Shown piece by piece: positions 12,352 to 59,588 of a stretch of 64,000 nt of DNA. The translations under genes and the position numbers were made by a program. How positions within the stretch are numbered: position 1 is the first letter of the stretch; each line of letters starts with the position of its first letter. This DNA comes from Medicago truncatula (lineage: Eukaryota; Streptophyta; Magnoliopsida; Fabales; Fabaceae), in contig NC_053046.1 in assembly GCF_003473485.1 (NCBI RefSeq), positions 36,789,832 through 36,853,831 on the forward strand. The letters run 5' to 3'. The notes under the pieces were generated by a model. That model saw only the letters and a list, made by a program, of their open reading frames with translations. It had not been told where the DNA came from and ran no database searches.

Positions 12352-12405
12352 ATTGCCCCACTAAACTTTTTTTTTTTTTTTTGAGGTAATTGCCCCACTA
12401 AACTT
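12352..12405. repeat. Ultra-short oligo(T) insert between 17-bp direct repeats
   Basis: ATTGCCCCACTAAACTT is present exactly at 12352-12368 and 12389-12405. The 20 nt between are T14 plus GAGGTA. This looks like a target duplication around a minimal poly(A) retroposition product on the minus strand. Confidence 0.75.
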
Positions 12406-12915
12406 GTAATTGTTTGTAACCATGTATAAAAGAATTTTAGAGTTACTTTCTCCAACGAGATGAGAATTGCTCTCCATTCAAGCCATATCAAAACTAACGT
12501 AGATGCCCCATATTTCGAAATGAATTAAGGATGTCACAAGTTCCAAATTTTCTAATGTAACCTTTGATTCATCTTCGTTTAGAGTTTCATAACAAGCCGA
12601 CACATCCCGCGATCTCTCCATCTCTCTTAGAGGTACAATCATTGTTATGCTTTATCGGCCATCAGAGGGTTGCTTTGGGTTGAATATTATGATGAAGCGA
12701 TTGAGTATAACAATTAATGATTCCTCTTATAAAATTATGGATTGTCAAAATTGAATTATTTGGCCTTTGAAAATTATCTTCAAATATAACTTTATTACAT
12801 CACATCTATAGGATTAGGAACCAACAAGTGATAAGCCTACCGGTTAACATCCATAGCTCCAATGCTCAACTTGCATTATCTAATTATGAGAAAATGTAAC
12901 ATATTATTTTTGTAA

Positions 12916-14128
12916 GGCTAAAATATGTTTTTGGTTTCTGCAAATATAACGAGTTTGAGTTTTGATCCTGATAATTTTTTTTTTTTTGAAAAACGTCCTT
13001 GCAAAATTTTGTTTTTTAAAATAATCACTAGACCCATTTTCTTACTGATTTGGCAATATTTGTCCTATGTGTCACTTGCTAACTGTGTATAAGCAGTACA
13101 TGTGGCATTTAAATGAAATTAAATAAAGATAAATTAAATTTTTAAATCAGAAATTATTTTTTACTTTAATTATAATTTTTGAATCCTGATAAAAAAAAAT
13201 GTGACCTGATAAAAAAATAATTAAAATTTTCAATTTTAATTAACCTTTTATTCTATATTTTTGTCACAGATGCAATTATCTTCTCCAAATCCAGCAACAT
13301 ATAAGGAAAAATCCACAAACAAACACATATCAGTGAAAAATCAAGCCAATTTTAATTCAACCATCTTCTCCAAATTCAATCAATCCCAAATTCCTCAATT
13401 TTAGTGAATAACCCATCAACTCAAATTACTAAAACCCATATCAATTCCAAAAGAAATTCAAATCTGCATCCCCTTTCTCAGTGAGAAATTCCTCAATCTC
13501 AGTAAAAATTCCATCAACTCCAAATCAACCCTCACCCATGGCTGACCCTATCCTCGTCGCTTCTTCGGAACAACCTTCTTTCCTTCAAAATCAGTTTCAC
13601 CAATTAACAACAATAACCTTTAAACACCCAGGACTGAACTCTCCTTCAACATCCTTAATCATTTGTTATTCAACCAAAACCAATCAAAATTAGATGCAAT
13701 TCAAACCACAATTCGTGATATGAAATAGTTTAAGAAAACAATTCATAGAATTAGAAAATAGTGAAAAGCAGATCCGATAAATTTATAAATACAAAACAGA
13801 TCTGATGTTTGGTTAGGGGATCTGATGTTTGATTCGTACGAGAGAAGTTGAAACGAGCAGTTTGGTGGTAGTGACGAGAGGGGAGGGAAGAGACATGGTC
13901 AAGAAAGGATTCGTATAAATTAATTGCAACCTGGATGCCACGTGTACAAGTTTAGACATTCAGCACCTGCCATATAAGCGAAAATGCACCAAATCAGCAA
14001 GAAAGTGGGTTCAGAGACTATTTTAAAAAATAAAAAATTTTGCAAGGACGTTTTTCAATTTTTTTTTTTTACCATGAACCAAAATCCAAACTCGTCATAT
14101 TTTCAGGGACTAAAAACATAATTTAGCA
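12916..14128. mobile_element. 1.2-kb Mutator-like TIR element, 9-bp TSD, GC-richer interior
   Basis: The left end GGCTAAAATATGTTTTTGGT is mirrored on the right (GGGACTAAAAACATAATTTAGC plus one base). The inverted match continues about 200 bp inwards. TTTTTGTAA lies at 12907-12915 and 14129-14137, a 9-bp duplication typical of Mutator elements. The interior (about 13260-13930) is less AT-rich and contains a 70-codon open frame without recognisable family, so it might be captured host sequence. No transposase is present. Confidence 0.8.
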
Positions 14129-14299
14129 TTTTTGTAAAGATATAAAAGGGTCTTCTGGATTAACAAAAGGAAAAAAAGGTCTTGTTGAACTCTAAAAGAA
14201 ATAGCGTCTTCCAAACTTGTGTATAAGCACATATTAAAGAACTAAAAAATATCGATTTTATGAAAAAAGTGAATTTTGAAGCATAATTACTAAAACTAG

Positions 14300-14985
14300 G
14301 GGTGTTCATGGGTTGGTTTGAATTGAGTTTGATCAAACCCAAACCAAATCAAATAGGGTACTTCGGTTTAGATGAGGTAAAATAACCATCCATTATACTA
14401 TTGAGTGGGTTTAGGCAAACCCACTAATTTTTGGATTGGGTAATGGATTACCCAACTTATTTATTTATTTTATTTTTAATATTAAATGACTAAATGACAA
14501 GTTCTCATAATTTTGTTTAAAATAGTATTATACTTTTTAATTTTCTTAAAAAAATATGTTTAACTTATTTTACTATAATTTTATGCATCATAGAATATCA
14601 AATAATAAACTCCATCATAAAACACTTGCAAATAACTAAAGTTGCATGACATAAAATTGCATTAGTATCAAAATAACTAAAAAGTGCAACATATTAATTT
14701 ATAACTTTAGTATATTTTGATTTTCAATATATAGGGTACAATGTGAATGTTTTGGAAATATAACTTTCTTCTACCCTATGAAAATAAAGATAAAAAATAT
14801 TATCATTATCGGGGTAAGTGAGTTTTTTGGGTTTGAGTTTTGTTTTACCCGAAACCCATTTATTTTTATGAGTTTTCCATTTTTAGAAACCATACCCACA
14901 CAATTACCCAACCCAACCTATTTTTTAGAGTTTTTTTGGATGGATTTGATCAGATTTTCTGGGTTGATCCAACGCATGAACACCC
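14300..14985. mobile_element. TIR element with GGGTGTTCATG termini
   Basis: GGGTGTTCATGGGTTGG at the left is matched by CCAACGCATGAACACCC at the right. The interior is AT-rich with repeated GGTTTG/CAAACC words. I see no clean target duplication. Termini beginning GGGTGTTCA are common in hAT-type MITEs, but this assignment is tentative. Confidence 0.6.
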
Positions 14986-14988
14986 AAA

Positions 14989-15131
14989 TAAATCCTAGAG
15001 AGGAAGAAAAAATTTGAAACTAAAATCCTAAAGAGGAAGAAAAACCGTGTATGGGGCCTAGAACCTTTGTATTTGTCCAAAAAATGGTCTTTTGTATAAG
15101 TAAATCCTAGAGAGGAAGAAAAAATTTGAAA
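14989..15131. repeat. Tandem direct repeat, about 112-bp period
   Basis: TAAATCCTAGAGAGGAAGAA followed by AAAATTTGAAA appears at 14989 and again at 15101, with a weaker third match (CCTAAAGAGGAAGAAAAA) between. It is non-coding. Confidence 0.7.
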
Positions 15132-15890: not shown

Positions 15891-15937
15891 AAATGTTACT
15901 TGTGGTGACCATTAAAAAAAGGGAAATGTTACTTGTG
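15891..15937. repeat. Ultra-short A-rich insert between 14-bp direct repeats
   Basis: AAATGTTACTTGTG is found at 15891-15904 and 15924-15937. The 19 nt between them include A7. Same kind of scar as at 12352. Confidence 0.65.
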
Positions 15938-18134: not shown

Positions 18135-18176
18135 TTTAATAATAAATAGTGACCACATTACATATTCATGGTTTTT

Positions 18177-18236
18177 AAGAAGTAAAACTGAGTTTTCTCA
18201 AATAAAAAAAAAAAAAGAAAAAGAAGTAAAACTAAG
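18177..18236. repeat. Short A-rich insert between 17-bp near-identical direct repeats
   Basis: AAGAAGTAAAACTGAGT (18177-18193) and AAGAAGTAAAACTAAGT (18220-18236) differ at one base and enclose 26 nt with a 12-A run. Confidence 0.6.
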
Positions 18237-18445: not shown

Positions 18446-18556
18446 TAAAACTCACGCATTCTTATATATGGAGAAACATGATGTATGAGGTTCGAATCTT
18501 AACCCCTGCATATATTATGTATTGTCTATATCAATTGAGTTAAACTCACGGTTTAG
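18446..18556 (-). mobile_element. tRNA-derived SINE-like copy
   Basis: On the minus strand, GAGTTTAACTCAATTGATA (box A-like) and AAGATTCGAACCTCA (box B-like) are in order. The flanks are AT-rich. Confidence 0.45.
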
Positions 18557-20245
18557 TTCCTTATTCTACCTGTGGTTTATTGTGAAAAGAAAAACAATAG
18601 TGGTTTATTTGTTGACACCTACTACACTAATTTGCTTAATTGGTTGTTAATGTGTGTCCATTGTGCAGTGTGACATTTATTTAAAAAACCAGAATAATCA
18701 TTTTGACAATAAAACAGGTGGATGATATTGTATTTTTTATACGGTTGTCAACTAATCATAGTTTTTTCTCTCTTTCTTTTAATTAAACTAACATTTACTT
18801 TATATGTATTTATACACGATGTTTCAAAAATTGTCACATTTTGGTTGTTCAATCACAATTTTTTTATTAACAAAACAGCACCTAATTGAAATGACATTTT
18901 GATTAAAATTAAACTAATAAGGAATGTTTTTGTCCTTACTTTCCACTTTAAATCGTTGTCCCAATTTAGGCACTCTCTTCTTTTTCCTTCCTTCCTCCCT
19001 CCATTAAAATGGCCTTCATGTTAGAAATGTCTTGCTTTAGAGTTTAGACATATCATGTCATTATCAAATGCTCATTTGTGTCACTACGAAAACTAGCATT
19101 TTTGTTCTAACATATCATTTGATCAGCCGGCCCAATAATGTTAAATTATTAGAAAGAAAAAAAAAGTTGGAAATTAATTAATTACCATGCATATGTTAAC
19201 GACAAATGTAACATAATTTATGAATATATTTTCCCAAAAAATATATACAATTCAATTCTAGATTCTGGTGACTCACTCCCACTATGAGACAAACATGAGT
19301 GGCCTTTCAGATCATTTTCTAAATATACAATTCTTCAATATATTATATAATTAAAGGGAAAGCCACTAATTGCTGTACAGTTTCAAGCACATGATCAAAA
19401 ATTTATTTGATTGAACGTATAGTTTATATTAAAACCTTAATTTATAGTGGACAAAATTGACTTTGGAGCATGATCCGTTTAGATAATTTAAATAGTTACA
19501 CATTGTAGCAAGATAAAGTTATAACCTATGACATAAACAGATAGTCATGCATGTGGGTTTTTCATTTAAATAACAGCTTTGCATTCCAAAAAAAAAGTAA
19601 CAGCTTTGCTATTGCCAATAACCCACATTGTTGAATAGTCGGTTCAAAGTTGGCTAGAACTAGAGAGGAGTTAATAAATCCAATGACATTTTTTATATTC
19701 TTTATGAAAAAAGGGTTAGTAATATCTGAGTTTGATTTGTTGGATTGGAATACCACACCAAGTTGATTATTGAAAAAAGAAGCGAATAGGTGAATCCCTA
19801 AAAATATTATATTATTTTAAAATATTCGCTCATTCAAACACATTTAAATTATATATATATATATATATTATTAATATTTCTGAAATGGCCTCAATAAGGA
19901 CTAACTTGCCAATGTCCTACAAAGTCAGTGTCCATTTTAGTGGTTTATTCAACCTAAAGAGGGGCTCAATAGTCAATTGCTATTTTTAAATATACTTTCT
20001 ATGCTTTAATTTTTTTTAAAAGAATTTTATCCGAACTATTTGATACAACAATGATGTATGTCTAATAGCTAGATGATTTAAGTTGGATAATTGCAATTTT
20101 ATTTAAGAATTTTGACTCTAATACTATTCTTTTTAAATTGATCCCAAATTTGATACAACCTATTAAGTTTGAAAAGATAATAGATTCTTGTCGTTTGTTT
20201 CATACTCTCTTGAGTTCTCATACTATATACTCCCAAATATACATA
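18557..20245. other. Intergenic; one ultra-short A-rich insert, no gene
   Basis: At 19571-19609 the 12-bp string TAACAGCTTTGC is duplicated around ATTCC plus nine A and a G. A (TA)n run lies at about 19849-19869. The rest is AT-rich without recognisable coding sequence. Confidence 0.55.
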
Positions 20246-20254
20246 TATATAGAA

Positions 20255-21589: not shown

Positions 21590-24500
21590 TCATCTTGGAG
21601 ATTTTAAAGATTCAACTTGAGATTTTCCACATGGACCCCTCATTCTAATGAAAAGCCTATATTCATCAAAGGTCATAGCAGGGTAGAGGGCAGGTTTATC
21701 TGGCTTTACCAATTCTTTTGCTGGCTCTATTGGAATGTCACTTTTGGGATTGTAGAAGAAGGCTAAGGAAACTCTCTCTTTGTGTGAGTTTGCTATTACT
21801 CTATGCTCTACACTCCTGTAGATTGCATTGCTTAGAACCTTATCAAACACAAAATAAACAAATTTAGTAATATGCTATACTAACTATATAATGTTCAACT
21901 TTAATTAATTAAGAAATAATAACAAATCATTCATACTTATAAGGAAGGCAAAATCTTGGATCATTCTTGCCTCTCAAGCATCATCAATGATAGAAATCAT
22001 ATTATCATAGATGCAATTCTTAGGTGTTTATTTGCTAAGTTATTTTATTTCTACGTAATATACATATAAAAAGTTGGTCATTCGTGGACTCTTAATTACA
22101 TATGATTGTTAAGAATTGCGGTAATTCAAATAACTTTTTGTAACTTTTGAAAAATCACGATGCAGATAAAGAACATAATCATATATCGTTGGTCAACATA
22201 TAATAAGGTTGAAATGACTTCTTCCATTGCAAAGCTTTTGCATGACTTTTTTTTGTTATTTCAAATAAGAATTTAATCAATCTTACTGCAGTTTTATATA
22301 GATTCACTTAATATTCTAAAATCTAAACTGTACTCTTTTAGTTGAAGTATCTTGCTTTGAATTATTGGTCAATGTACATTACATAGGATAAGTTGTGATT
22401 GGTAGAGGACAACTTTACAGTCACAAATTAACTTAGGAAAGTAAAAGCACGATGGAGATAAAGTATATAATGAATAAGTTTTTTTTTTTTGACAAGGTAT
22501 CATGAATCATATGTCCATAATGTCGACATATCATGAATAAGTTTTTTTTTTTTTTTGACAAGGTATCATGAATAAGTTAACGACCCTATCCATCTTAAAC
22601 CTGTAGCAATGTGGCCAAATGTTTATCCACTTTGTGTGTGTGCATTGTGTGCTGATTATGCAAATCCTAGTGAAAAAGAACATTATTTATGATAAAACGT
22701 TTCTTTCAATTTTTCAATCAAACTATTTGACATGTCTATATTGATATTTATACGTCAATATACCAAGACTTTTTTTCACTTTGCTTAATTTGAGTGACAA
22801 AATGAGAAAGTGTAGTAAAATACTCATTTTGCCTTATATGAAAAATTAAGATACAAGTGTATATATATATATATATGTTTAAATATATCTTAACATTCTT
22901 TTTACGATAGTTATCTAATTTGATTTAGTTATCTAAACAGTAAATGAGTATTGTCGTCAAATTTGATCGGAAGGTCAAGTAGCAGTTCTATGTGGTGCAA
23001 TTGTTGTGTAATTTTTGTTGGTGGTGTTTAGGTTCTAACCCTGGACCATGCGTGCATTGTCCTTACCAATCGAACGAAATTTACGGTGATTGAAATTGTT
23101 GTGTATAATCTAATTAAATCCCTCTTGACATCTATTTTTTATTTTCAAAACTCAATATCTCGATTCTTCTTTTTATTAAAAATGCTCTCCATCCTTCTTT
23201 TAGAAAGCAAGCTCTTCCACACATTACTTATACTTTATATGTATTTTTAAAATCGTAATACTAGGTTTTGAACTGTTCTCATGTCACTTATAGTAACAAA
23301 CTTAAAAATATAATTAAAAAAATATCTTATCCCCCAACAAAATAAATAAAATAAAACAAAGAATGAGATGTGTCTTTCAAAAGGCCACAACCATCCAAAA
23401 AATCTGACGAATAGCAAAAATAAATAAACATATTATTATTAACAAAAAAAACGCACCAACTTCATCATGTGTCGCGTCCATGTGACAGATTCATGCATCA
23501 TGAATGAAAATTTTCTAGCCAAATATTATCAATAAGAATGTTATAAGAATTATATAATTCACCTGAATTTGATCACCAATATTGACAATAAATGCATTCC
23601 TAACAGGTTTCACCGTAATCCAATTATCACCTTTACGAACTTGAAGACCATGTATTTGATCATCTGGTAGCAAAAGAGTCATGCCTCCTGGATCTGAGTG
23701 TGATGATAAACCAAGAGTCAACTCTGGCTGTGGACATTTGGGAAAATAATTCACCCTTATGCAAGCACCAATATCTTCACCTCCAAAAGCATTTTGAAGA
23801 AAATTCTCTTCTAATCCAAGGTTTATAGATAGAACTTTCATCAACCGCTCACATAACTTCACCAATTCTATCCCATATTCATCAAACACCTCCCTACATT
23901 CAATATGCACAAAGTTAACATATTTATATAGGAGAAACTATTCATAAAAATTTAGAGATTAATGAGTTGGATAAAAATATAGTTTATGATAGAACATTAT
24001 GACCTAACTTGATTCATATAGCCGACCCATTTAGTGTGATAAAGTTTGACTGTTGTTGTATATGTTGAATTTTAACTCAAAATTTGATGTTTGTATTTTA
24101 GCAAAATCGCCATGGCACGATTTTGGTTCAGAAATTAGAGTTTGTTTCGACAAAAATCGTGGCACGAAGGAAAGAAATCGTTACACGATTTTGGATAACG
24201 TTCAATACTGTATTGTGTACTAAAGTGAAATCGTTGGATGATGGAAACAAATTGTGACATGATTTGACATGATCTAAAATACTATTTAAGCACTCCTTGA
24301 TTAATTTGTTGCGTAAGCTTGGTGAATCTCCTTGAAACCAAATGAAAAAACTTTTAGAGTATTTAGATACTAAAGGTTGAGGGTCTTTGAGTGAGGTTCA
24401 AAGCTTCAAGATGTGAATCTTGGAGAACCAAAAGAGGGGACTCTTGGGAAAGGGGTGATGCCTTTTGGGGAGAGATTCATGGAGTTGAGAAACACATAAA

Positions 24501-27775: not shown

Positions 27776-28838
27776 ATGTTTATGCTAATGTGTAGACGAA
27801 TGGCTCAGTTTCTTCATATATACATTATTTTGTCTATCTTTCAAAAGAGTTTTTGGATGCATTTGATTTACTATAAAATGCAAGTATTACAAAAAAAAAT
27901 AAAAAAACAACATTATATAAGAGAATAATATATGACAAACTTTTAAAATTTTAAATAATATTTTACCATAGAAACACAAATCTTTTAATTTTTATCAAAT
28001 CATAAAAATCGTGAATTTCACGTTGTCAAAAATTTTTCTTACGAAACATGATGTCAACCATATCTAGTGACCATCTTTCAAAAATAAAAACATATCTAGC
28101 GACCATCAAATAAAGATTGAACAATTATACTTTTAAACTTGTTTTGAATTTATAAAAATTAAAATCCATATATTTTGTAAATAGTCCTACATAAACTAAA
28201 CAACGTGAATGGAGTAGATATATATATCCTGAAACCTCAATCATATGCCGACAAAGTTGTTCGGTGTATATTCCGGCGCCATGTACATCATTATCTTACA
28301 TTATTTTTCATGCTTATCTAATTCTACACCAAAAAATTAAATGCAATAATCACAACCATCAAATGCTGTAGCATTGCATGAAAATGTTCGAGATTGCGAT
28401 TTGAATTGAATTGTCCCACAACCTTGCTTTCATGTGTTATTTTGAAAATAATATATGCTACTAGAGAGTGGTCCAACACCAGTAACTGGCCAACATGGTG
28501 TATCAATCAAGACACGTGGATAGTCTATTTAATTCGATATAAATGTTTTATTTTAGCACGAGATGTATAAAGAATAGAAACAATAATGTTATTATACTAA
28601 AAGCCTCTCAAGAAAAATACAAACTGAAATTCAAAATTTTGAGCACCCAGACCACTATTTTAATCATATACACTGTAGTTGATTTATCCATCCACCAATG
28701 ATTTAGATCATATCCAAAACACACAGACTTTGCTTTTAACTAACTTCAATAATGAATTTTGATCATGTCACAATATTCATCACAATTGTCATTTGCTTTG
28801 AACAAAAAAAGGTTATGATTTTGTTCTTTGCCAAATCA
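27776..28838. other. Intergenic; one ultra-short A-rich insert, no gene
   Basis: CATATCTAG(T/C)GACCATC occurs at 28059-28075 and 28091-28107 around TTTCAAAAATAAAAA. The remainder is AT-rich without coding similarity. Confidence 0.55.
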
Positions 28839-31665: not shown

Positions 31666-33388
31666 TGCTATTACTAAAAGCCAATAAAATTATTCTTATA
31701 GAAAGATCAATAAAATTATTAATAAGAAAATCCAAACGACTACACAGTACAGATTTTTATAACATTACGTTACTACTAAAATGTATTGAAAAGAGGCAAT
31801 GAAATCCCTTAAAAAAAGGCAACAAGATGACTATAGAGTACAGCTAAAAAGAAAGACATTTTTGTAGTAAAATAAAATACATGAAATAAAGGCAGACAAC
31901 TAAATGAAGAAAGTAAAAAAAAAACCTACTTCTCTTAACACTGTTCAACGAGAGTTAAGATCATCTCCATTTATGATATTTTTCATTTGTGAGTATCTCT
32001 CTTTCTAAATGACATTCTCCATTTATTTTTATAAATGGAGAGGATCCTTAATCGTTCAGCCGCACTCCCTTCACCCCCTCTCATTATCATCCCAAGACTT
32101 TCTTCTCTCTAACCTAGATCTGTACTATGCAACCCTTCCATCCGTTTAGCCGACTCTTATATTTTCACTCTCTTTTCTCTACCCCAGATCTACATCTCAT
32201 TTCTAATTTTCTTGATTGTATTTCTTTTTTTTTATTAAAAAAAAAATGAACAATCATGTATTGAACCGGTCCGGTTCACCAAACACCGCCCGGGTTACTG
32301 GTTTTTATCAATTTTGACCGAGTCACACCAGTTCTCTTGCATGCCCGATCTAGTGAGCAGCTCGGCCCAGTCATACCACCGGTTTTCAGTCGAACCGATC
32401 CAACCAGCTGGTCTGATCAGGTATTTGTCGTACTACCCATACAACTTTGTTTTCCACCATGACACAATTTCTGATTTTTATTCATTTATTTCAATTAAAA
32501 TTTCATTAAACAATGGAAGTGTGCCACATTTATGTCGTGTGGTTCGTGGTGCATATAGTATTGCTCTTATTAAAATAGCAAGCAACATCAAATAAAGAAA
32601 TTGAATTTTTGGAGCGCTATTTTTCTATTATACGCTCATTTTAATTCATCAATAAATTTCAATTTTTATTGCACACATTTTTTTCTTTTGAATAATTTAA
32701 TGTGCTATTTTCTCTCATAACAAACAATTGTTGGTTACTCTTCCTCTCTACATAGAATTCCTATTTTTTCGGACATACATTACCTCTCTCCAATACCAAA
32801 CAATTGTTCATAGTAATAATTAGTTAAAATTTTGTTTAAAAAATAAACATGTCATAGTTTTTTTTTAACTAATAACAAAAAATATAAACAAAGCTTGTGT
32901 TGATGGAGATTTAAATTTTCCTTGAAGATATGAAATTCTCTCAAACAAAATTGCAAATAAAATAAAATAAACAAACTTATCATTTCATATTAAATTTACA
33001 CATAAAAAAAAAAAAAAAAAAAAACAAACTTTGCTTTTTAAAAAACAAGAATTTTTCAAATGTATAGTATTAACTATTTTTATTGTAAATAAGTAAAACT
33101 GATATGCCACGCTCATCATGATGATGAGTGCTGTATGGCTATCAAGACATATGGCTGACATAATTTTTATGAATCAATAGGGTTGGCTCGTTCAGTTGAC
33201 CCTCATGTAAATATTTGCATATTTATAATTTTTTGTCTTTAATGTTATAATGTTTATTAAAACAAAGTAAAACTGAGAAAAGGGTATATAATTGACAAAT
33301 TATACCCTTAAACTATCAAACAACAGTTAAATAGAAACATAAAATATGTATTCAAACGACCCTTAAAAAGAAGTGGAAGGAATGCTCA
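31666..33388. other. Intergenic; CCGGT-rich repeat at 32265-32420
   Basis: The transporter promoter should lie at the left end. Around 32265-32420 there is a GC-richer patch rich in CCGGT/ACCGG words (GAACCGGTCCGGTTCACC, CACCGGTTTTCAGTCGAACC), which looks like a repeat fragment. The part from about 32600 on resembles 36500-37060 downstream of the second F-box copy, and so belongs to the same tandem duplication. An A22 run lies near 33003. Confidence 0.5.
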
Positions 33389-34475
33389 CTAATCCCATTG
33401 AAAATGTGGTGAAACCCAAAAAGGAGGATCATATGAAATATGATGTTCTTTTACCTTATATGTCTCCATATCAAATTGGCAAGGAGTTGCACAATTGAGC
33501 TTGTACGCATAAGTATCATTAGTGAAATAATTGTCTCCATAATAAATAGAATCTTTCTTTAGACAACCAGAAAAGTACGAAGCTGATGCACAAGTTGAAT
33601 CATGTATTCTCTCCCACAAACAAAACATTATCTCCAAGACTCTCAAGTTTTACCATTTGCTTAACTTTTCCACTTTGAGCATCAAATTCCAACTTGCACA
33701 CTTGAAAACATATGGTATAATAATTGTTGTACTCAAAACTCAAATCCCTTTTCACCAGCCACAAGTCTCCCTCTAATGACTTCACAAGATAACCTTTAAA
33801 GGTTCCATGAAAAACAACGTTGTTGGTTGGAATTATCGTCACGCCATAAGGGTCGTCTAAATCAAGATTGAAGGACACTATACCGCGACAGTGACTTACA
33901 CCATATACTAAATCTTTGTAGAACATAACATCCATAAAGAATAAACAGTTTCTTATATAATAAGTCCAACATGTTTGGCCTGCTTTTATAAAAGCAAGAC
34001 TAGAAGATTTGTGGATTGCTAGAACCACGTAATCATTTGGTCTTATTATAGGGTCAGCAGAAAGAGTAACCTTTTTCACAACATAGCAAGAACTTTTATA
34101 AGCATTATTGAGGGGTGGAAGACTAATATGAGCAACATTCTTAAAAGGATTCAATATAGTTACGACATGATTTCTATCTTCTAATGCAAGCCATCCATGA
34201 CTATTTCCGCAACAAGTAATTTTGTAGTTAATAATTGGAAATTTAAATGCATACATTCTCTTGGCTGGAATGCTATACAAACATATGTTTGTTCTTGGGA
34301 TCATTAGCATGGGTAGTACATGAGTTCTGAACTGCTGATTTTGATGGTTAAACTTTGCAATTGATCGCCAGTTCTTGCACACGGCACCGAACCAAACATG
34401 ATCTATTCGTTCTTCTAACTTGTCAAGAATTAAACCTAGTGCAAGTGCTTCTAAATTTTCCCAATCTGGTTCCAT
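33389..34475 (-). pseudogene. F-box/DUF295 gene copy 1, C-terminal frameshift
   Basis: From ATG 34475 the frame gives an F-box-like N-terminus (ALALGLILDKLEERIDHVWF, AVCKNWRSIA) and the beta-propeller-like DUF295 domain (NSHGWLALEDRNHVVTILNP, LVKSLEGDLWLVKRD). It ends after DNVLFVGENT at 33600. The next frame continues the family sequence at once (DSTCASASYFSGCLKKDSIYY...) to a stop at 33389, ending PPFWVSPHFQWD. The paralogue at 37 kb reads through this point in one frame, so a one-base-type indel near 33600-33612 is the likely lesion. Such proteins are substrate receptors of SCF ubiquitin ligases. The 291-residue product lacks only the last 80 or so residues and could still be made. A sequencing error is the alternative. 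Confidence 0.8.
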
Positions 34476-34551
34476 TCTGTTGAATATAAGAAGAACTAAA
34501 GATAAGATAAATCTATGATGATAAGATTTTGGTTTTTTCTAAATTACCTTT

Positions 34552-37066: not shown

Positions 37067-38028
37067 CTAATCCCATTGGAAATTCGGTAAAACCCAGAAA
37101 GGTGGTGGCTGCTGCTTGTTGAAGAAATGATTGTGAAGATTGTGATGATCAAAGGTTCCATCTCTTACATTATACTAACTTGTTTGCATTAATGATTGTT
37201 TTCATATATCCCTATATGAAATGGACCACAAGTTACACAATCTAACTTGTTTGCATTAATACTTTCTGTGTAATAAATTGAATCTTTTTTCAGACAACCG
37301 GAGAAGTATGAAGCTGATACAGAAATTGAATCAGTGTCTCCCAAGAATAAAACATTGTCTCCAAGACTCTCAAGCTTTTTTATTTGTTTAAACTTTCTGG
37401 TCTGAGCATCGAATTCCAACTTATACACTTGGAAATCATTCTTAAAAGTAAAAAATCTTTTCACCATCCACAAGTCTCCCTCTAATGATTTCACAAGATA
37501 ACCTTTAAACCTTCCATGAAAAGCTATGTCCTGAATTGGATTTGGAGTTATCCTTTTATGACCAAGATTAAAAGATACTATACCCTGATATTTACTCCCA
37601 ACATAAACTAAACCTCTATAGAACATAACATCCATAAAGGAATGAAGCCAGCTCGAGCTACATACATAAGTCCAGCATGGTTCACCCGCTTTTATAAAAG
37701 CGAAACGTCCATGAATGCTAGTGTGAATTGCCGCAACCATATAATCATTTGGTCTTGTTATAGGGTCAGCAGAAAGAGTGACCTGGTACCCGACCTCAGA
37801 TAATCTTGTATATGATCGACCGAGGGTTGGAAGACTAATAGGAGCAACATTCTTAGAAGGATGCAATATTGTTATGGCATAACTTTTATCCATTGTTGCA
37901 AGCCAACCATGGCTAAATCCACAACAAATATGGTAATAAGGATTTGGCAATTTAAATGGATACATTTTCTTCGCTGAAATGCTATACAAACATCTTTCTA
38001 TTCTTGAGAGTTGCTGATGGGAGAGGCA
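37067..38028 (-). pseudogene. F-box/DUF295 gene copy 2, lacks the F-box and has a disrupted C-terminus
   Basis: The open part (37989-37189) is the DUF295 domain, closely related to copy 1 (FSHGWLATMDKS, LVKSLEGDLWMVKR, SASYFSGCLKKDSIYY). Family similarity extends upstream to about 38028 (FRSCLSHQQLSRIERCLYS) and then stops abruptly, so the F-box and the native start are absent. At the other end a local direct repeat (ACTAACTTGTTTGCATTAAT and AACTTGTTTGCATTAAT) interrupts the reading. The family C-terminus PPPFWVLPNFQWD follows in a different frame with stop at 37067. It cannot act as an SCF receptor as it stands. Confidence 0.8.
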
Positions 38029-39625
38029 CGATCGGAAAATTAAACAAAATAGAAAAGGTTCAAAACCAATATAAACTATTTTTTAGAGAAACATGCTTAT
38101 AGCATTTCAAGTCAAAAGATTTAGATGATTTTGTAACAAAAAAATTTCTTTTATATGGTTGTATATATCTAAATAAATTAAATTATTTTAAAAAATATGA
38201 CTTTGTTAAAATAAAAACAAACATAAATTAAACCAAATCAAGGGAACAATATTTTCACTAAGAAAATAAAAAAAGAAAAAAACACAAGACTATTTCTTAC
38301 TAGTAAATATTTTTGCATCAAATTTATTCAATTATATCTGATTTTTTTTTTATGGATTTAATTATATTTGATTGCTAATTACAAATAACATAACTTTGAA
38401 AAAATTACAAAATATAATTTCTCACTTATAAATTATACAAGAAATTAACATTTATTGCAAGAGATACACCTACTTTTCAGAAAATTGCAAATTTTTAAGA
38501 TTGCTGCTTTAATGAAATTAATCCTATGTTTTTTGTTTATATTATTGTCATATTATAAAAACATTTTGTCGTTGTTATAGATTATTAATTATTATATCCT
38601 TTGAATGTATGGATATATGTAAAACATCGGATAAATGATCAATGACTCACTAAATAATATAGTAGTACAATTCATACACGGACAACAGTTTGTCGCAAAT
38701 TTGTGCTATCCAAAGAAGCATGATCCTCCTGGTGATCGTGTTCAAAATCATCATTAGCTTCAAGGACCTCGATATATATCTATATCTTAATGATCTTACA
38801 TAAACTTCATGTTGTTCTGCGGATCAACATCAATAGTAGGAGAAGAATTTGGTAACTGCACAGACGCTTCTAGTGACTGTTTGTTTGTATCTTGCGTCCT
38901 CATCGCTAACAACAAGCACTTCCTCTGATTGTTTGTTTGTGTTATGCGTTGTTGTAACATTCTTAAGTGCATTCGATCATGGTATCTATATATGTATCCA
39001 TGAATGGTGACGGGGTCTTTGGAAGAATCCATCTTCTCTTTGTATTTTGTTTGGAAGAGTAATTATAATATAGTAATTATAATTTATTAACAAAAAAAAA
39101 TTAGCAGAGGTGGGAGCACATGTTTAAAAACCATCACACAAAAAACCAAAGAAGATTTGTAATGCTTATGTTTCCCTCTCAAGGTACCTAACTTTGCGTC
39201 AAACAAAAAGTAAACTAATTTTAATATATTATCACGTAATTGTGTTAAATTTAAGTAGGTTGATAGCATACTAAATTTTAAAAGAAATTGACTGACTAGA
39301 AAATAAATTAAATATATTAGCCTGGCCTTAATCTTGAATTGTTTTTATTGCATCAAACTTAATTATATTTTGTAAAGTCTAATTCAAATCAACTTATTCT
39401 TACTCCAATTTTTTTTAAAAGATATTCCTACTCCTAGTTAGAACTCAGTATGTCCTACAATTTATGTCATCTATTTTAAAGTAAGTCTTAAAATTTATCT
39501 CACATATTTATATTTCAAGTTGATTAACACTTGGTTGCCGAATTGTCGAAAAGCTTGTTTTTCGGTATACTACAGCTAGAGAAACCAATTCTCAAATTTC
39601 AATGATAAAAAGCTGAAAATATTAT
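38029..39625. other. Intergenic, no supported gene
   Basis: AT-rich. A 78-codon frame on the minus strand (39032-38796, MDSSKDPVTIHGY...) begins with ATG and is less AT-rich than its surroundings. I recognise no family and would not call it a gene without transcripts. Confidence 0.4.
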
Positions 39626-40455: not shown

Positions 40456-43207
40456 TTGTTCTTTGGCTATCAGTATTGCATCTCACTATTATGAGTTGAG
40501 TATATTTTATTGCTTCATTTAACTTTTTAATAAAGTATATATTTAACAATAATATATAAAAGATATATTAAAACTAATAAATTTCAATTACTAAATTTTA
40601 AATATTTAAATATTAGTTGATATAAATTTTATTATGAACTAAGAGTGTCTTTTTACTTATTTTACATATTTTAACTAGTTAAAACACTAATTTCATTAGT
40701 TTATTAGTTATCAACTATATAAATTATTAATCATTAGGCATAAATTATGGAGTAATGATATCAACACGTTCATTACAACATTTTTTATTAGGTAAAACAT
40801 ACGTGGATCTCGTCATTTTATGTAAGTTTCAATAGCATTCATTTAAACTATAAAGCTATTTTTATTAAAGAGAGTACTCTAAGTTAAGAGATTAATTTTG
40901 CTTAGATTTATGAAACCAAAATAGTGTATGTATGACTACGTCAAAAGTGTGGTGATTCATCATCAGTACTTCACTTTGTTTTTCAACACACACAAGTGCT
41001 AGCCTCGTGTGACAATAGAAGAGAGAAGAAAAGTATGCTTTCAAGTTTCAAAGGTGTCATAAATAATGGAAGGCTGACTCAGAAAAAAAACATAACATAT
41101 CTTGCTGTCTGTCACCCAACTACGACCCACTCATAGTTAAGCATTTATCAATCAAAAACATTATAGAAATAGAAATGTAGCAAAAGCCAAACACAGCACA
41201 AAAAACGCGTTCTAACTAGTTATGTTATGGGTTGAACTTCCACTCCCTTTTCTCATGTGGTCCCTAATCTAATCTATTGGACTTGGCTCCATTGCTTCTG
41301 TTCTGTACTCTTTCACAGTTCCACTTTCCAATATTTATTTATCTATTACATTTAAATATGTCTCTGATAGTATCTCTATAAAAATATAAAAAAAAACATA
41401 TTAAATATGAATTAAAATAAGAACAATGCTAAAAAAGTGTTCGGATATTTGTTAATGTATTGGAATTTCTGGAATCAATTCTTATTAAAAATCTTTAAAA
41501 TACATTTTTCAGTACAATTTTTTTATCAACTATCAAATTGACTAAAAAAAATCGATTATAAAAGTTTAATCACTTCACTTGAAATATTCAGTTTCGTTAG
41601 GAGGAGAATCCGACTAAGCGTATCTAACTAGATTTTTTGATAGAGATTAGTCATCGATAAAAGTTGTTGGATATTTCACATCAATAACATGGTTAAAAAA
41701 AGTTAAATTTTAAATGGGTAAATGCAACTAGTTAAATAGGTTTGTGTTTAAAAGTTAAGGGATAACGATATTAACCGATACAATCCACACTTATGATGGT
41801 GTTTCTTTTTTTATGGTGCTTAGGGTGTTTCTCTTTACAACCATTGTTTTTTTTTATGAATCAGATATCATTGACGCACAATGATTCTTCGAGTTGAATA
41901 AGACTAAATTTCGACAGAGTCTATCAATATGTAGTATTATGTGACAAATTTTACAGATTGTCATAGTGGCATGCTAATTTTTTGTTTAACAAAGTGACAT
42001 ACAATGTTTAGAATGAAGAGCATGGCGATGAGTTTGAGTTGATATTTTGCAAGTTCTTTATATTTCCTTAGTAGTGTTCACCACTTGACCAATTTTGACT
42101 CATTCAAATAATTTGTTTTGGTCCTCCTACAAAATCATGTGAAGCTACGTCACTAATTGGCCTCAAATATTTCTCAAATGTTTTATACTTATTGTTAACT
42201 ATTCTTTCCCTAAATGGTTTCAAAACTATTTTTAGTAAATTAACTTTATACTTAATGTCAACTACTCTTTCCCTAAATGGTTTCAGAACTATTTTTAGTA
42301 AATTAAATGAGAGTAGTAAAAATCTTTAGAATGAAATGCAGCAGTGGACAGTACTTTACTTGTTCTGTTGCTGTAGAAAAAAAGTAGTTACTTGTTCTTT
42401 CTAAAAAGGAAGGGAAAAACACCTGTCATTTTCACACAAATATTTCATGACAACATAAATAAATTCAGAATTTTATTCTCTTCAGGATGTTAACTTTCTT
42501 GCTAAACCCAGTATATCTATATTCTATTCTATTGCACCGTATACCTGCTAAACTTTTACATATTATGATTATGCATGATTATGATTTATATATGCATGTA
42601 TAAATTAATGCTGAAGTGACTCACCATTTAATCTTTGAAATTGTATTGGTTCAGTAATTTAGTTCTCTAAATTTATGAAATGAATTCAGTTTTTGAAATT
42701 AAAAAATTAAACTCACCTCATTTAGAAGCAAATTTTTTTTTCTTTTCAGATGAGGTTTATAATTATGGACAGTGGGAGTATAAGGAAGATACATGATTTA
42801 ATCTATATTAGACATATATCTTTTTTTTTTGAGCAAATTAGACATATATCTTGATCATCAAGAAAGTAAATAAAAATATATTTGGACATATATCTTGATC
42901 ATCCTTTATGGAAATTATTTCAAAACCAACATTGATGGATCTTTCAAACTAAGCTTGATGCTTAGATTGGCATGAGATAAGGGAGGGTCTCGATCAACTC
43001 ATATTTTAGATCTTCAACCCTCACCGATGGAAACTTCGTGTAAATTTGAAATTACAATGAGTTTGACAAAATTACAGCAACATTGTAATTTTATTAAAAC
43101 TCTAAAGTGTAGTTATTGTAAAATCAAACTCACTTCAAACATAAACTTCCACTTGCAAAATCAAGCTCACTTATCGGATATGTTTCACTTGTTCTCCATG
43201 TTCTGCT
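40456..43207. other. Intergenic, no gene; one ultra-short T-rich insert
   Basis: About 2.7 kb of AT-rich sequence. ATTAGACATATATCTT is duplicated at 42807-42822 and 42837-42852 around T8 plus GAGCAA. A direct repeat of about 75 bp (CTATTTTTAGTAAATTAA... TACTTAATGTCAACTA type) lies at 42185-42305. No coding similarity recognised. Confidence 0.5.
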
Positions 43208-48124: not shown

Positions 48125-48349
48125 TTAGTCTAATAATATAATTATTAAACTATTTTTTTTTTACAAAATAATTATTAAACTATTGAAAAGTTCAAGTATG
48201 CAACTATACATTTTTTAGTTTAAAAACATATTTGAAATTTGAAAATCTCCCTCATTTTGAGGACAGAGAGTGCAATTAAATTATATTATAGAAATAAGGC
48301 ACAGTATTATATTCTACATCCTCTTATAAAAGAATATCAAAACATGAAA

Positions 48350-49290: not shown

Positions 49291-50255
49291 CATATATACT
49301 AACAACTGAAATTTATCTATATAAAAAATTAAATCAACTAAAATGTAATCAAAACCATTCAAATAGTGATCATTGTGGGCTAATAGGTCAACATGCAAAT
49401 TAGCTTCACGAAACGCATAACATATGCTCTTCAAGTAGACTAAAAAGAGAAATGACATGTTGAAAGTTGAGGTTGAACAAACATGCATTTGGGGAAATCA
49501 TCAATCGTTATTGTTTGTTTCCATCAATGCAAGTTAATCACTTATAAAAAAAATAAAGCATCTTTACTATCAATGAGAAAAATTAAGAAATAATATTTTA
49601 TTTTAGTTTTTTGACTCAAGAAAGAATATTTTATTAAATATAGTATTTTTCAAGGGATATTAAATATTGCATTTTTTTAGGGGAATTAAATATAGTATAT
49701 AGTATTTCTTACATATCATAATAGAATATTACTTTTGTCAAGAAAAAAATCAATAAAATATCAATTTTATCATAAAGGATTGGAAGTACGTACCTTTCCA
49801 AGAGTGAGAATTTGCTCTAGTCAAAAAAGGAGAGTGAGAATTTGTTTAATAATGAAAATCAATTAGAAAAAGAAAGGAAAAAAACAAGTAAACAAACCAA
49901 ACTAGTCAAGCATTATATGATATTTTCTAATAGATACTTAAGATTAAAAATAATTTTAAAAAAGTTTTTAATTCTATTAAACTCTTAAACTGACCCATAT
50001 ATTTAACCACCTGTTATCAATTAGACCTTTGTATTTTAACAACTCAATTTTATCATTATATTTAATCACTTAATATTAATATAGTCTTTATCATAAGCAA
50101 GATAGAGAGAAAAAAAAGAGAAATAAGTTGTTATAAAAATTGTTATACGAATATCATTTCTTCATTTAAAATCATGTCGTGAACACAACATTATTAAACA
50201 TCCAAGAAAGATTTACCACTCATTAGAGTTGTATTGAGCTCGATGTATTAATATA
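49291..50255. other. Intergenic; ultra-short insert and a MITE half, no gene
   Basis: AGAGTGAGAATTTG is duplicated at 49801-49814 and 49831-49844 around CTCTAGTCAAAAAAGG. At about 50090-50165 the right half of the 'ATTTGAACAAC' MITE family is recognisable (AGAGAGAAAAAA... GTTATACGAATATCATTTCT). The rest is AT-rich. Confidence 0.5.
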
Positions 50256-51478: not shown

Positions 51479-51488
51479 GATTTGGATT

Positions 51489-54793: not shown

Positions 54794-54872
54794 TACATGA
54801 GGAATGACTTTTCCTAGATCCTATCTAGTCCCACAACCCCGCTCCTGTCTCACCTTACACCTTTTTATCAAG

Positions 54873-55044: not shown

Positions 55045-57093
55045 TTTTATCAAGCATTCCAACCTCATATTTCCCATCTCTTTCCTTCTCTCTACCATCA
55101 ATCTTCTCTACAACCAGACAGTTTTATAACATGTGGAGAAATGATGGAGACAAGTCATAGATGTAAATTGAATTGAAACACGTAATTATAAAGGGTTTCA
55201 AAAGGCCGAGAACTTAACATTGGCAATGTCACTACTCACTAGTAATTGTCTAGGAACTTTTCCTATGTCATCTTTCACTACTATAAGAGCCAATACCAAT
55301 TGAAATTTGATGCAAATATGGCTGTGTTACGTTAATTAACTAGTATTCCTAGTCATCTTTCATCTATGTCATCTTTCACTAGTATTCCTTAATCCTAAAA
55401 GAAACTAATTCATAAATTTTCACTCTCTCATCAATTTAATCCTTAAACTATTTAAAGTCTATTAAAATATCCCTAAACTATTTTCTCATCTAACTATTTA
55501 GTTCCCAAGTTAACAAAATTGATTGTTTTTTATAATAGTTTAGGAATTAAATTAACATGCTTTCCGTAGTCCACGTAAAAAAAAAACCTTTTAATTGATT
55601 TAATAGTTTATAGTATACTAAATTGATGAGATAATGATAGTTTAAGAATTAAATTGACCTTTTTTCAGCAAGAAAGAGCGTCTATTGCAATCTAAAACAA
55701 ACATGCATTAAATTAGGTTATATCTTAATGATCAAATACTTAAACATTTAAGATAGTCAGCAAGATTACTTGTTATTTAAGATAATATTTTTTTGGAGGG
55801 AGTTAAATTAATCCACTCAAATTGATAACGAAGAGAATCGAATCACACTAAGATCTTAAACCAACATCATCAGGCTAAACCTAGTAGGTTAATTATTAAT
55901 AAAATTTTAAAAAATAGTTAATTTTTTTATCTTTTAATTTAGTTAATTCAATATTTTAAAATTAGATAATTAAGAATGAATAGATAAAATATTGTTAAAA
56001 TTTAATGAAATATAGTCACCGTTAGGACCCATTTAATACATTTTTTGTGGTGTTAGATTGAAGATATTGAATGATTATTAAGTATTAATTATAAAACGGG
56101 TAACATGTACAATCGAGACCCATTCAAACACTCAAAACATTCAAATAGAATGTTGTATTGTAAATGGTCTAAGCTTTAAGCATTCACATTTCATAGATAT
56201 GTAATAATTTAATAATAAACATTCATTTATATTAGAAAGACATGAGAAAGTATGAAATAATTATAAAATCGGACGAAATCTACTTAATGTGATCTATTTC
56301 AACAATTGAATCATTTCCCTTATTTTATATTTTGCAAAAAAAATATTGAATGTATAGCTTGACATCAAGTGTCATTGTATCATTTAGATTCGAAACCATC
56401 ATCAGCAAAGTGTAATATTAAATCTATAAAATATTTAATGAATAAAAAAAAAGTATATGCAAAGCAATGTGTTTATAAACACATTTACATATAATATAGT
56501 TTGAGTAAAAGAACAAAGCTCATGTTAATCTTCCATAGATTTGAAGAATTCCAACTTCTTGATCAGGAATGACTTGGAAAAACATTGGACGAAGCAATCA
56601 TGCTGAATTTTTTAGTGTATTATACAATTTATTGCCCCTCTTTTCTTTAGTGGGTCAATGTATTTTCTTTAGCACAAGAGAACAAAGTATTTGCCATCGA
56701 TTAATTAGCACATTTTTAAAAATTATATTATGTGGTTATCCATTATTGTGAAAGTATTATTTGGGAATCTAATTTGTTTAATTGCAATCCTTGTGGTTAT
56801 GATTAGGTTTCGTGCTGTTTTTATATATAGAGACACAGCCATAATGAATAAAAAAAAGTGTTACATGTAACAACAAAAATAGGAAAACTTCATTAGTGTG
56901 AAAGGATGCGCGCCGGCAATGATGAGTAACGTATTCAATCTTTAACTTGTTCTAATTGTTTTTTTAAAAGAACTAATTTTTTTTTTTTATGAGAACTTAT
57001 TTTTAGTTTAATCCTATATGAACAATTCATATTATTTATTATTTTTACAAATTTAAAAGTATCTTCCATGTAACCATTGAGCTAATCATTTAA

Positions 57094-57193
57094 GTTCCTA
57101 TGAATTTAGCTCAATTGATAAAGACAATACGTAATATATGTAACTGCGGTTCGAACCCCATACAAACGCCACACACAAAAAAACAAAAAAAAA
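57094..57193 (+). mobile_element. tRNA-derived SINE with A tail and 12-bp TSD
   Basis: Box A-like AATTTAGCTCAATTGATAAA and box B-like GCGGTTCGAACCCC are followed by an A-rich tail. CTAATCATTTAA is exact at 57082-57093 and 57194-57205. This is a clean retroposition and supports calling the other tRNA-like copies SINEs. Confidence 0.85.
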
Positions 57194-57677
57194 CTAATCA
57201 TTTAAAGTAACTAAAATGTTTTCTCATTCATATCGATCAAGCAAACTCTAAATCATAATTAAGAGATTCAAGTATCAACCAATGCACAATTTAGATTTAT
57301 ATTTTTATTTGTTTTATTTCTCCATTAAAACAACGTGTTTTAAGGTGATTATAAAATTAAAAAAAAAATCATGTTTCTAAGGTTGTATCAGTCTTTCATG
57401 ATTGAGTTATATATTCAACAATTATATATGGACATTTTAAATTTTTCTACCCCATTCAAGATCTTGTTTCTTTTCTATCTTCCCATTATATCGTCAATCT
57501 ATTATATTCGTCATATCATTTCTCTTATGCATATCTCTTTCGGGGTGTCTAACAACCATTTTTCTTATATATTTTTATTCCTTTTTAACATATTTTTTCG
57601 CTCTTTCCCTCTACTATTGATCCACCTTTAGATGTTCTATGTTTTTGTAATGAAGAGGTTCTACTCTTTTGTTATAG

Positions 57678-57717
57678 ACAAAGGTTAATTTTTTTAGTGG
57701 ATACACAAAGGTTAATT
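57678..57717. repeat. Ultra-short insert between 13-bp direct repeats
   Basis: ACAAAGGTTAATT at 57678-57690 and 57705-57717, with TTTTTAGTGGATAC between. Confidence 0.65.
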
Positions 57718-57732
57718 GTCAATATATTGTTA

Positions 57733-57840
57733 AAGAGGCGGAGAAAATGTTAGCAGCAGAGATCGAACTCTGAATCCTATTTTTGAACTTCTTCAATTCC
57801 CGATCCTTTAACCATCGAACTACACCTTCGACGAAGCTGT
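57733..57840 (-). mobile_element. tRNA-derived SINE-like copy
   Basis: Minus strand: GTGTAGTTCGATGGTTAAAGG (box A-like), CAGAGTTCGATCTCTGC (box B-like), then CTGCTAACATTTTCTCCGCC. It is the intact counterpart of the split copy at 48350-49290. Confidence 0.6.
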
Positions 57841-58229
57841 TCTACTCTTAACAACTTCTGGTTTATACATAATATGCCAGACCCCAAACAATGTCTAGGA
57901 GCAATGATTTTTCGTTATCCCATCTGCCCCAGCCCCACACCCCCACTCTTGCCCCACCTCACCTTCATCTTTTCCATTTCTTTTCCTCTCTTAAACATCA
58001 ACATCCTCTACAACCCGATAGTTTCATAACGTGTGGAAAATATCCGCTGAAGTGATGGAGACAAGTCATAGATGTAAATTGGAATGAAACATATAATTGA
58101 TGAGGAATTTCAAAAGTGGCCCGGAACTTAATCTTGGCAAAGTCACTAGTAATCGTGTGCGTCATCTTTGTAGACTTGGTTGAAAAGAATTTAATAAAAA
58201 TTCATTCTTTTGCATCATCTCACTCTAAA

Positions 58230-58291
58230 TTTGATACGGACCAGGGCCTTTTCTGCACACAATATGACTCACTTCCCTGGTCCGTATCAAA
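58230..58291. repeat. Perfect 17-bp inverted repeat (hairpin), 28-nt loop
   Basis: TTTGATACGGACCAGGG at 58230-58246 and its exact inverse at 58275-58291. It is not present in duplication copy A, so it arrived or formed after the duplication or was lost from A. Confidence 0.85.
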
Positions 58292-58365
58292 ATTGTAACT
58301 ACATGTCAGCATCATAAAAGTTATTATTTTTAAATGTTTACAAGTTACATGACGTGATAAAAGAA

Positions 58366-58535
58366 AGAGATGTGTTATTTGAACAATCATTTCAATGACA
58401 ATTTATGGAACAGTCATAATTTATAAAGGAAATAAGATATTGACACAAAATTAATGCAATAGAGAGAGAAAGTAAAAACATAATGTGAGTATGAGAGAAA
58501 AAGTTGTCAAAAAATAGTTGTTCAAATATTTTTCT
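58366..58535. mobile_element. MITE, 'ATTTGAACAAC' family, copy 5
   Basis: GAGATGTGTTATTTGAACAA on the left, TAGTTGTTCAAATATTTTTCT on the right, with the AGAGAGAGAAAGT centre. Absent from the equivalent place in duplication copy A. Confidence 0.75.
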
Positions 58536-59200
58536 AAAACAAATGACTCATTACAATGACCGCGTATGCCATTAAGCTCATTTGAGAAAGTGTATGAACC
58601 GATATCAGTTGAAATTAGATGCAAAATTCCTTAATCCAATTGTTCTTTGTATTATATTATGGAGCTCTTGGAATCTCATTTAGTTGAAGGATCCTCAGCT
58701 GGGTTGCTTTAGAAAAAATTACATTATGTTTTAGAAGTTAAGATCCTATCCATTTAGTCTCTCCTCCATTTCTTTCATTTGAAGAGATATAAACATAAAA
58801 AAATTTAAAAATAATTAATGATGGTGAAATTCATTTAATAATAGGACCCACCACCTATTTTTTGTGTCTATCTTTTTTCTAATTGCAATCTCCATTTATT
58901 TTAATAAATGGAGAGGATCTCAACCCATAGTTCATGGCAAATTTTTGTTATTAGAATGAAAGAGGGTTAAAGCTCCACAAAAAAACTACCCTATGAGAAA
59001 GATGCAGTCTAAAACAAACATGCATTCAATTACGTTATACCTTCTTAATGGTCATGTAAAGACATCGAAAGATTAGTCTCGGTTAACCTAAAAAAAAAAG
59101 ACATGGAAAATATCAAATAATTCTAAATCGTACGAAATCTAGTTAAAGAGATTTTTTTGCAATGTGATAAATTCATAAAATTCTAATCTCGACAATTTAC

Positions 59201-59588
59201 TTTCATGCAAACTACCAAAAAAGAAATATGGCCATAATTTTATCAATAAATGACTGTTAATTATATTTTTTTTGACAATAGACTGTTAATTTATTAGTGA
59301 TTTAAACAGATCCCAACTTATCTTTACATTGCGTTTAAAAAAAATTACCTTTACATGCTCAACTTATTGAGGCTGATATATATATATATACAAAATAATG
59401 TGCTATACAAAGTATGACAGTAATAATAAAACTACACTTAAACAAGATAAATATTACACTAACAAGCCTAAAGAAGCAAATGAATCAGAGCTACCATCCA
59501 AAACAAGTGAGGCCAAAGTGTAGACAGAATTTCAACTTCTAAGGGATTGCGGCAGAACAAGTCGATGAATACAAGAAATCATGCAACT
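59201..59588. other. 3' flank of the tomosyn-like gene; two short insertion scars
   Basis: GACTGTTAATT is duplicated at 59252-59262 and 59281-59291 around a T8 insert. An A8 insert lies between two CTTTACAT copies (59322 and 59349). A (TA)n tract is at about 59380-59391. Confidence 0.55.

Follow-up and report, generated by a model that had tools for sequence, protein, structure and literature searches.

The question raised by a 64,000-nucleotide stretch of the Medicago truncatula genome (the window, C5:36789832-36853831, contig NC_053046.1, in an assembly of 430 Mb and 42 contigs, 8 of them of chromosome size) is how a recurrent class of very short, A/T-rich insertions arises. A first-pass annotation of the sequence had listed eleven places at which a direct repeat encloses such an insert. 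Read on the A-rich strand, on which all layouts are given here, a site consists of a target site duplication (TSD), a short body, an A(n) tail and the second TSD copy, so that the tail stands at the 3' copy. The class very probably represents retroposition products of the L1-type LINE (long interspersed nuclear element) machinery, made by target-primed reverse transcription; this conclusion concerns the LINE origin of the insertions and not the cause of their early stop. The features that show the origin are the identity of the body (at several sites and for three search words), the position of the tail at the 3' TSD, the length of the TSD, a TT|R motif at the TSD edges and a peak in body length.

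A direct repeat around an insert with an A/T run is present at every one of the eleven places. The repeat length that had been claimed for them stands for ten, where it is 11-18 bp (nine repeats are exact, and that at 28059 has 1 mismatch in 17), but not for 59322, where the repeat measures only 8 bp and is absent from every scan. The A+T content is 69 % in the window and about 67-69 % across the DNA examined, and A-runs are many; the first-pass annotation had itself proposed a comparison with shuffled sequence of the same composition. Low-complexity repeats were removed from the scans by hand. The window holds 25 short-gap repeats of at least 12 bp, while Markov replicates (100 for each order) contain a mean of 0.48 at order 2 and 1.04 at order 4, with maxima of 3 and 4. 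An A/T run of at least 6 is found in 10 of the 25 inserts, including one repeat-internal case at 20655, compared with 1.9 expected at random positions (maximum 8 in 2000 draws). When A-runs of at least 5 are taken as the starting point, 17 of 761 have a repeat of at least 11 bp whose second copy lies at the run end, a few of which (e.g. 17975 and 20678) sit within other repeats; the mirror arrangement is found 5 times and mispaired flanks give a mean of 1.5. Among the 191 A-runs of at least 7, a score of 10 is reached by 10, compared with 6 in the mirror arrangement (three of these six being the same sites with the repeat seen shortened) and a null of 0.18. The Markov, mispaired and random-position nulls are thus all far below the observation; the architecture exists and exceeds chance by a wide margin. 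As explanations of the main class, chance and plain tandem duplication were both rejected after the Markov, mirror and mispaired-flank scans.

The class is not special to the window. In a sample of 15 systematically placed 10-kb pieces from C1-C4 (150 kb), 281 A-runs of at least 7 yield 18 hits, a few of them within other repeats, compared with 6 for the mirror and a mean of 0.3 for the mispaired null. A stricter test over a larger set, which comprises the window and 19 pieces (254 kb, 190 kb of it outside the window), yields 28 hits against a null of 0.3 and a mirror count of 9; 13 of the 28 lie in the window, which looks richer in the class than the rest. The class is also sharply short: in the window and the 15 pieces, bodies of 2-15 nt number 16 in the real arrangement and 0 in the mirror, and bodies of 16-30 nt number 0 and 2, while the longer bins combined hold 15 and 9.

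The identity of the bodies was examined by comparison with the 3' ends of resident LINEs. The window contains an L1-type LINE of the source type, a 5'-truncated element at 9365..10975 on the minus strand (5' limit approximate) which has zf-RVT and RNase-H-like domains and the 3' end ...TATGTCTTTATTC-A12; a TSD was looked for around this element and not found. A protein search with it gave 106 scored matches among 3829 first-look candidates, and the 3' ends of 40 of the 106, chosen for high rank or for a long open frame, were read. The 36 with a usable tail, together with the window LINE, form a set of 37 LINE ends; L035, L041, L052 and L064 were left out, having no tail or being judged not to be LINE ends, and the ends of L032 and L037 were set by hand before an interrupted tail. 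The dinucleotide TC stands directly before the tail in 30 of the 37, and the family ends include TTTGCTC, TTCTTGTC, TTTATTGTC, TTTTATTCC and TTTTCCCT. The insertion bodies TTGCTC, TATTGTC, ATTCC and TCCCT are equal to L1-type LINE 3' ends, and CTTGTC lies within the end CCTTGTC.

Four of the listed sites illustrate this correspondence directly. At 42807..42852 (minus strand) a 16-bp TSD surrounds the body TTGCTC and A8 plus two ambiguous A, and the body equals the ends of L045, L057, L061, L063 and L067 over 6/6 nt. At 19571..19609 (plus strand) a 12-bp TSD surrounds ATTCC, A9 and G, the body being the end of LINE L042 (5/5 nt), and at 59252..59291 (minus strand) an 11-bp TSD surrounds TATTGTC, A8 and TAT, the body being the end of LINE L060 (7/7 nt). 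The site named 22530 (22529..22578, minus strand) has a 15-bp TSD, the body C+CTTGTC and A13 plus two ambiguous A, and its CTTGTC is common to the ends of L066 and L068. It lies inside a partial local duplication, 22465-22578, that holds the CTTGTC-A insert twice.

The correspondence may also be evaluated over all A-runs of at least 6, of which there are 903, 33 of them with a TSD (the candidates) and 870 without. A LINE-end match of at least 5 nt is found at 8/33 candidates and 42/870 other runs (p 2.4e-4), or at 7/32 candidates once one duplicate is removed (p 1.1e-3); in the window part the counts are 5/17 and 17/343 (p 0.002). TC is not enriched before long A-runs as a whole (9/104 runs of at least 8, compared with a fraction of 0.111 before short runs), but it is enriched at A-runs with a TSD (11/33 compared with 71/870, p 6.6e-5). 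On its own the LINE-end test is modest, and the genome-wide word counts weigh more.

Those counts were made by searching the genome for a LINE-end word followed by A10 and for the reversed pattern. TTGCTC-A10 occurs 460 times compared with 23 for its reversed control, TTCCCT-A10 644 times compared with 59, and CTTGTC-A10 526 times compared with 27, which places the three fillers at 11-20 times the control. The places read (60/460, 20/644 and 20/526, respectively) were the first listed, all on C1, and not a random draw. Ordinary LINE copies make up 4/60, 1/20 and 0/20 of them. A strong TSD (score at least 10) is present at 34/60 TTGCTC places (null 0.04), 12/20 TTCCCT places (null 0.0) and 12/20 CTTGTC places (null 0.0), that is, at 58 of the 100. 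The match to the LINE ends at 6-8 nt in 95 of the 100 places and at 9-12 nt in none. Micro-insertions thus stand to ordinary LINE copies with the same tail as 95 to 5, or as 58 to 5 when only strong TSDs are counted.

Where the TSD is clear, the length of the body peaks at one value per family, which differs from what random truncation produces: 6 nt in 22/34 TTGCTC sites, 5 nt in 6/12 TCCCT sites and 6 nt in 8/12 CTTGTC sites, with all but two of the other bodies within one or two nucleotides of the family peak. A LINE match of 6-8 nt is what a body of fixed length would produce, since the base beyond it can agree by coincidence or owing to the terminal T of most TSDs. Truncation at variable positions, as in L1-clade LINE insertions, is not what these families display. 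The 34 TSDs of the TTGCTC class have a mean length of 15.2 bp, and 23 of them measure 15-17 bp. In 41 clean TTGCTC and TTCCCT sites the 3' TSD edge has, on the top strand, T at -1 in 31, T at -2 in 26 and A/G at +1 in 32; in the TTCCCT class the search word is partly responsible for the T at -1, and the TTGCTC class alone, which is free of this effect, gives 23, 19 and 25 of 30. At the other edge, read on the bottom strand, the corresponding counts are 40, 34 and 35, partly owing to the A tail. In the two families tested, both TSD edges therefore fit TT|R on opposite strands.

These results bear on the two origins that had first been proposed for the class. Hyper-truncated LINE products are upheld by several bodies which are LINE 3' ends, by the tail at the 3' copy, by TSDs mostly of 15-17 bp, by TT|R edges and by paralogous places of site 12352 that are empty of the insert (described below), with the amendment that the length, instead of varying, peaks at a single value (5-6 nt) in each family. 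Templated repair of staggered breaks, the other proposal, leaves the family-specific LINE ends unexplained. A nick consensus of TTTT/AA type had been named as something to look for at the repeat edge; both edges fit TT|R, which is looser than TTTT/AA, and the first edge is confounded by the A tail.

The anatomy of the sites, together with what is known of target-primed reverse transcription, suggests the following course of events. The endonuclease would nick each strand at TT|R, with some 15-16 nt between the two nicks, and the 3' end at the first nick would prime cDNA synthesis on the poly(A) tail of the RNA. The cDNA would extend across the tail and no further than the final 5-6 nt of the LINE RNA, after which its end would be joined to the other overhang and the gaps filled in. 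Since the stop falls at a fixed template position in each family, the template may often have been a stub of LINE RNA, consisting of poly(A) and 5-6 nt (a protein-protected decay remnant, for example), that was copied to its end; we regard this as a credible proposal but hold it tentatively. It is about equally likely, and likewise short of probable, that reverse transcriptase stops or is intercepted at that position on intact RNA. A broader form of the stub proposal, which we advance with some reserve, is that the class is one of body-less retroposons: the L1 machinery would repeatedly integrate a defined tiny RNA of 5 or 6 nt and poly(A), derived from LINE RNA through decay or through cleavage a set distance from the tail, and reverse transcription of such stubs would run through to the end, as it does on full-length templates.

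The first-pass annotation had recommended a look for empty sites in relatives, and for individual sites such places were sought among paralogues. Site 12352 (12351..12405, minus strand; 18-bp TSD, body ACCTC, A14 plus two ambiguous A, LINE-end match of only 3 nt) lies in repeated sequence, and 7 of the 11 distinct paralogous places that were read have one copy of the repeat and no insert, the remaining 4 being too diverged to call; 5 of the 11 were picked because the match pieces abutted, and the places are paralogues of about 72-77 % identity, not orthologues. A TTGCTC-A(n) micro-insertion is also present in the five copies read of another repeat family (L091, L082, L114, L153 and L154), where it was probably amplified with its host element; L082, L091 and L114 represent a single repeat and do not count as independent.

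Several results weigh against the interpretation given so far. The demonstration of empty places is confined to one site and to paralogues, and the L091 family gave no place without the insert among the copies read: of 40 matches, 24 cover the query from end to end, and the insert is retained even in the two that are shortened most among these 24. A strong TSD is lacking at 42 of the 100 places read. The three words with positive counts were picked after they had been seen as bodies, and TTATGTC, the sole word taken from LINE ends alone, occurs 36 times compared with 23 for its reversed pattern. Among the 18 of these 36 places that were read, one known LINE copy (L048) having been skipped, there are 1 LINE copy and 3 places with a TSD, and the LINE match extends for 7-8 nt in 15 and, at one place each, for 9, 10 and 14 nt. 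All families should be affected if stubs were a generic mechanism, so the small excess of TTATGTC counts against it. A six-letter search word hides most shorter bodies, and the lower side of the length peak consequently rests on TSD edges. The motif at the first nick is confounded by the A tail, and no common RNA hairpin was found immediately 5' of the stop. In the 150-kb sample by itself the LINE-end match is weak (3/16 compared with 25/527, p 0.04), as is the occurrence of TC (4/16 candidates compared with 50/527 runs, p 0.06); the LINE-end test owes its strength to the window, from which the idea was first drawn. Finally, 25 of the 33 candidates match the 37 LINE ends over fewer than 5 nt, although some of these are not micro-insertions at all.

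The alternative that survives best leaves the LINE origin in place and attributes the short bodies to extreme 5' truncation, in which end-joining factors (Ku and its partners) capture the nascent cDNA early on intact LINE RNA. This is possible, if not what we would expect. Loss of Ku70 lengthens the insertions of a zebrafish LINE in chicken cells (PMC2666801), which means that end joining can shorten insertions, and in the present sites the length of the tail varies while the TSDs are normal. Early capture predicts a spread of end points, however, and of the 100 places read, 95 have a match that breaks off at 6-8 nt and none has one ending at 9-12 nt. A survey of human L1 insertions of 50-10,000 bp (PMC2912911) provides a further, informal comparison: full-length copies there have a TSD peak at 14-16 bp and microhomology at the chance level, while 5'-truncated copies have relatively frequent short TSDs (longer ones still predominate) and microhomology in nearly 80 %. 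By this comparison the Medicago sites appear to resemble full copies of a very short template more than truncated L1 copies.

It is rather unlikely, but deserves consideration, that part of the class derives from mRNA or SINE (short interspersed nuclear element) RNA templates acting in trans, and that the TC before the tail is merely a Y-A polyadenylation junction. A Y-A junction is the usual one for polyadenylation. The bodies CTAGT, CTCCAAC, ACCTC and GTGACCATT match the 37 LINE ends over at most 3 nt, and the site at 57678 lies at a SINE-like tail; in addition, poly(A) recognition and the movement of SINEs and mRNA are presumed for the L1 elements of flowering plants (PMC3747384). Against this, each of the three words that are strongly in excess is a LINE end, and other LINE families may supply the poorly matching bodies, since 3' ends were read for only 40 of the 106 scored LINE matches and the window LINE.

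A patch-type tandem duplication, in which two nicks close to each other produce a staggered break that is filled in so as to duplicate 11-18 bp and an A/T-rich filler is added or expanded by slippage, is very unlikely as the origin of the class. Breaks with complementary 3' overhangs are known to give rise to small tandem duplications (PMC8355091), and the window does hold short-gap duplications without a long A/T run. The process does not account for the location of the A-run at one particular copy (17 compared with 5 in the mirror, and 16 compared with 0 for bodies of 2-15 nt), for three fillers that are resident LINE ends at 11-20 times the reversed control, or for a filler length with a single peak per family. 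The evidence thus speaks against it for the TTGCTC, TCCCT and CTTGTC classes, although individual sites, 15891 for one, may have arisen in this way. At 13799, 27433, 31682, 44886, 1738 and 26783 there are exact short-gap duplications of 13-17 bp with an A/T run of at most 4 in the filler; they form a second, different class, perhaps the product of patch-type break repair. The weakest alternative, accidental repeats in AT-rich sequence with its many A-runs, has a negligible probability, every null being far below the observation except in the case of site 59322.

The other sites in the window match known LINE ends less well. At 49801..49844 (plus strand) a 14-bp repeat encloses the body CTCTAGTC, A6 and GG, with a 4-nt match (AGTC) to the end of L059, and at 48138..48184 (minus strand), one of three sites added by the systematic scans, a 17-bp TSD encloses TTTGT and A8 plus two ambiguous A, with a 4-nt match to the end of L053. 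The 13-bp repeat at 18177..18233 (plus strand) surrounds GAGTTTTCTC-AAAT-A13-GAAA, whose ...TCTC agrees with the LINE end L047 only on the reading that the tail is interrupted, and the 17-bp repeat at 28059..28107 (plus strand) surrounds the body TTTC and an A5-T-A5 tail resembling the interrupted tail of L037. Three sites are without a LINE match: 15891..15937 (plus strand), where a 14-bp repeat surrounds GTGACCATT-A7-GGG and the match does not extend beyond 3 nt, and the other two scan-derived sites, 6909..6966 (minus strand; 17-bp direct repeat around AAAACATTTATATAT-A8-G) and the weak 42356..42398 (plus strand; 11-bp repeat around GTTGCTGTAG-A7-GTAG). Not all of the listed sites belong to the class. 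Site 59322 (59322..59356, plus strand; 8-bp repeat around TGCGTTT-A8-TTAC), which is under all thresholds used, is probably due to chance, and site 57678 (57678..57717, minus strand; 13-bp repeat around GTATCCACT-A5), situated in the tail region of a SINE-like repeat, does not qualify as a clean case; site 15891 should perhaps be removed as well. The possibility that 57678 is an insertion with an empty site was tried by flank search and alignment, which gave the SINE-like repeat instead.

The window also contains an ordinary TSD-flanked, A-tailed insertion, a copy of a tRNA-type SINE at 57082..57205 (plus strand) with A9, a 12-bp TSD CTAATCATTTAA and the motif GGTTCGAACCCC, which we take to be box B. 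The segment 18482-18548 (region 18482-18550) is a decayed relative of this SINE at 57094-57193, and 6181-6221 matches the copy at 18.5 kb. A U11 spliceosomal RNA gene lies at 33086-33206 on the plus strand (Rfam, 45.5 bits), and two KIB1-4 beta-propeller reading frames lie on the minus strand at 33603-34538 and 37192-38082.

Compared with known systems, the micro-insertions are closest to the 5'-truncated L1-clade LINE insertions of plants and mammals, with which they share the poly(A) at the 3' TSD, the LINE 3' end, a TSD of about 15 bp and an AT-rich nick site. They differ in that the body is 5-6 nt long and each family favours one length, where ordinary truncations vary, and ordinary human L1 truncations more often have short TSDs and microhomology (PMC2912911). 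Plant SINEs and processed pseudogenes are likewise poly(A)-tailed and TSD-flanked, and L1 is presumed to mobilize them in trans (PMC3747384), but the present insertions have no pol III boxes and no mRNA body, and 5-6 nt is too short for either; boxes A and B together do not fit into bodies of 4-15 nt. Patch-mediated tandem duplication, reportedly treated by Vaughn and Bennetzen in 2014, also leaves short direct repeats in a plant genome, whereas the spacer here is a tailed LINE end of preferred orientation and length. A poly(T) insertion in human NF1 is similar in consisting of a tail with almost no body, and is attributed to the L1 endonuclease; its authors consider that an Alu, an L1 or a processed pseudogene may have been severely truncated to produce it (PMC3219598). 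That is a single case whose source is unknown, while the Medicago insertions form a recurrent class with an identifiable LINE source and a preferred body length. The process itself is known, and the human NF1 case is an example of a severely truncated insertion that consists of the tail only (PMC3219598); no recurrent class of fixed length is described in the titles and abstract openings found among open-licence papers.

What sets the stop of LINE cDNA synthesis is a long-standing question, and a stop at nearly the same base in most of the 95 places points towards either the stop or the template being defined. Standard repeat annotation is likely to miss the class, which also falls under the 50-bp size floor of at least one published survey (PMC2912911). 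By a rough extrapolation from the 190 kb beyond the window, where 15 sites were detected, a few of them false calls within repeats, it could number tens of thousands genome-wide, in which case it adds short A/T tracts and target duplications to the genome. The paired TT|R marks provide a readout of both nicks, and the tiny insertions suggest that what the enzyme copies and inserts is often an almost empty message whose length is fixed.

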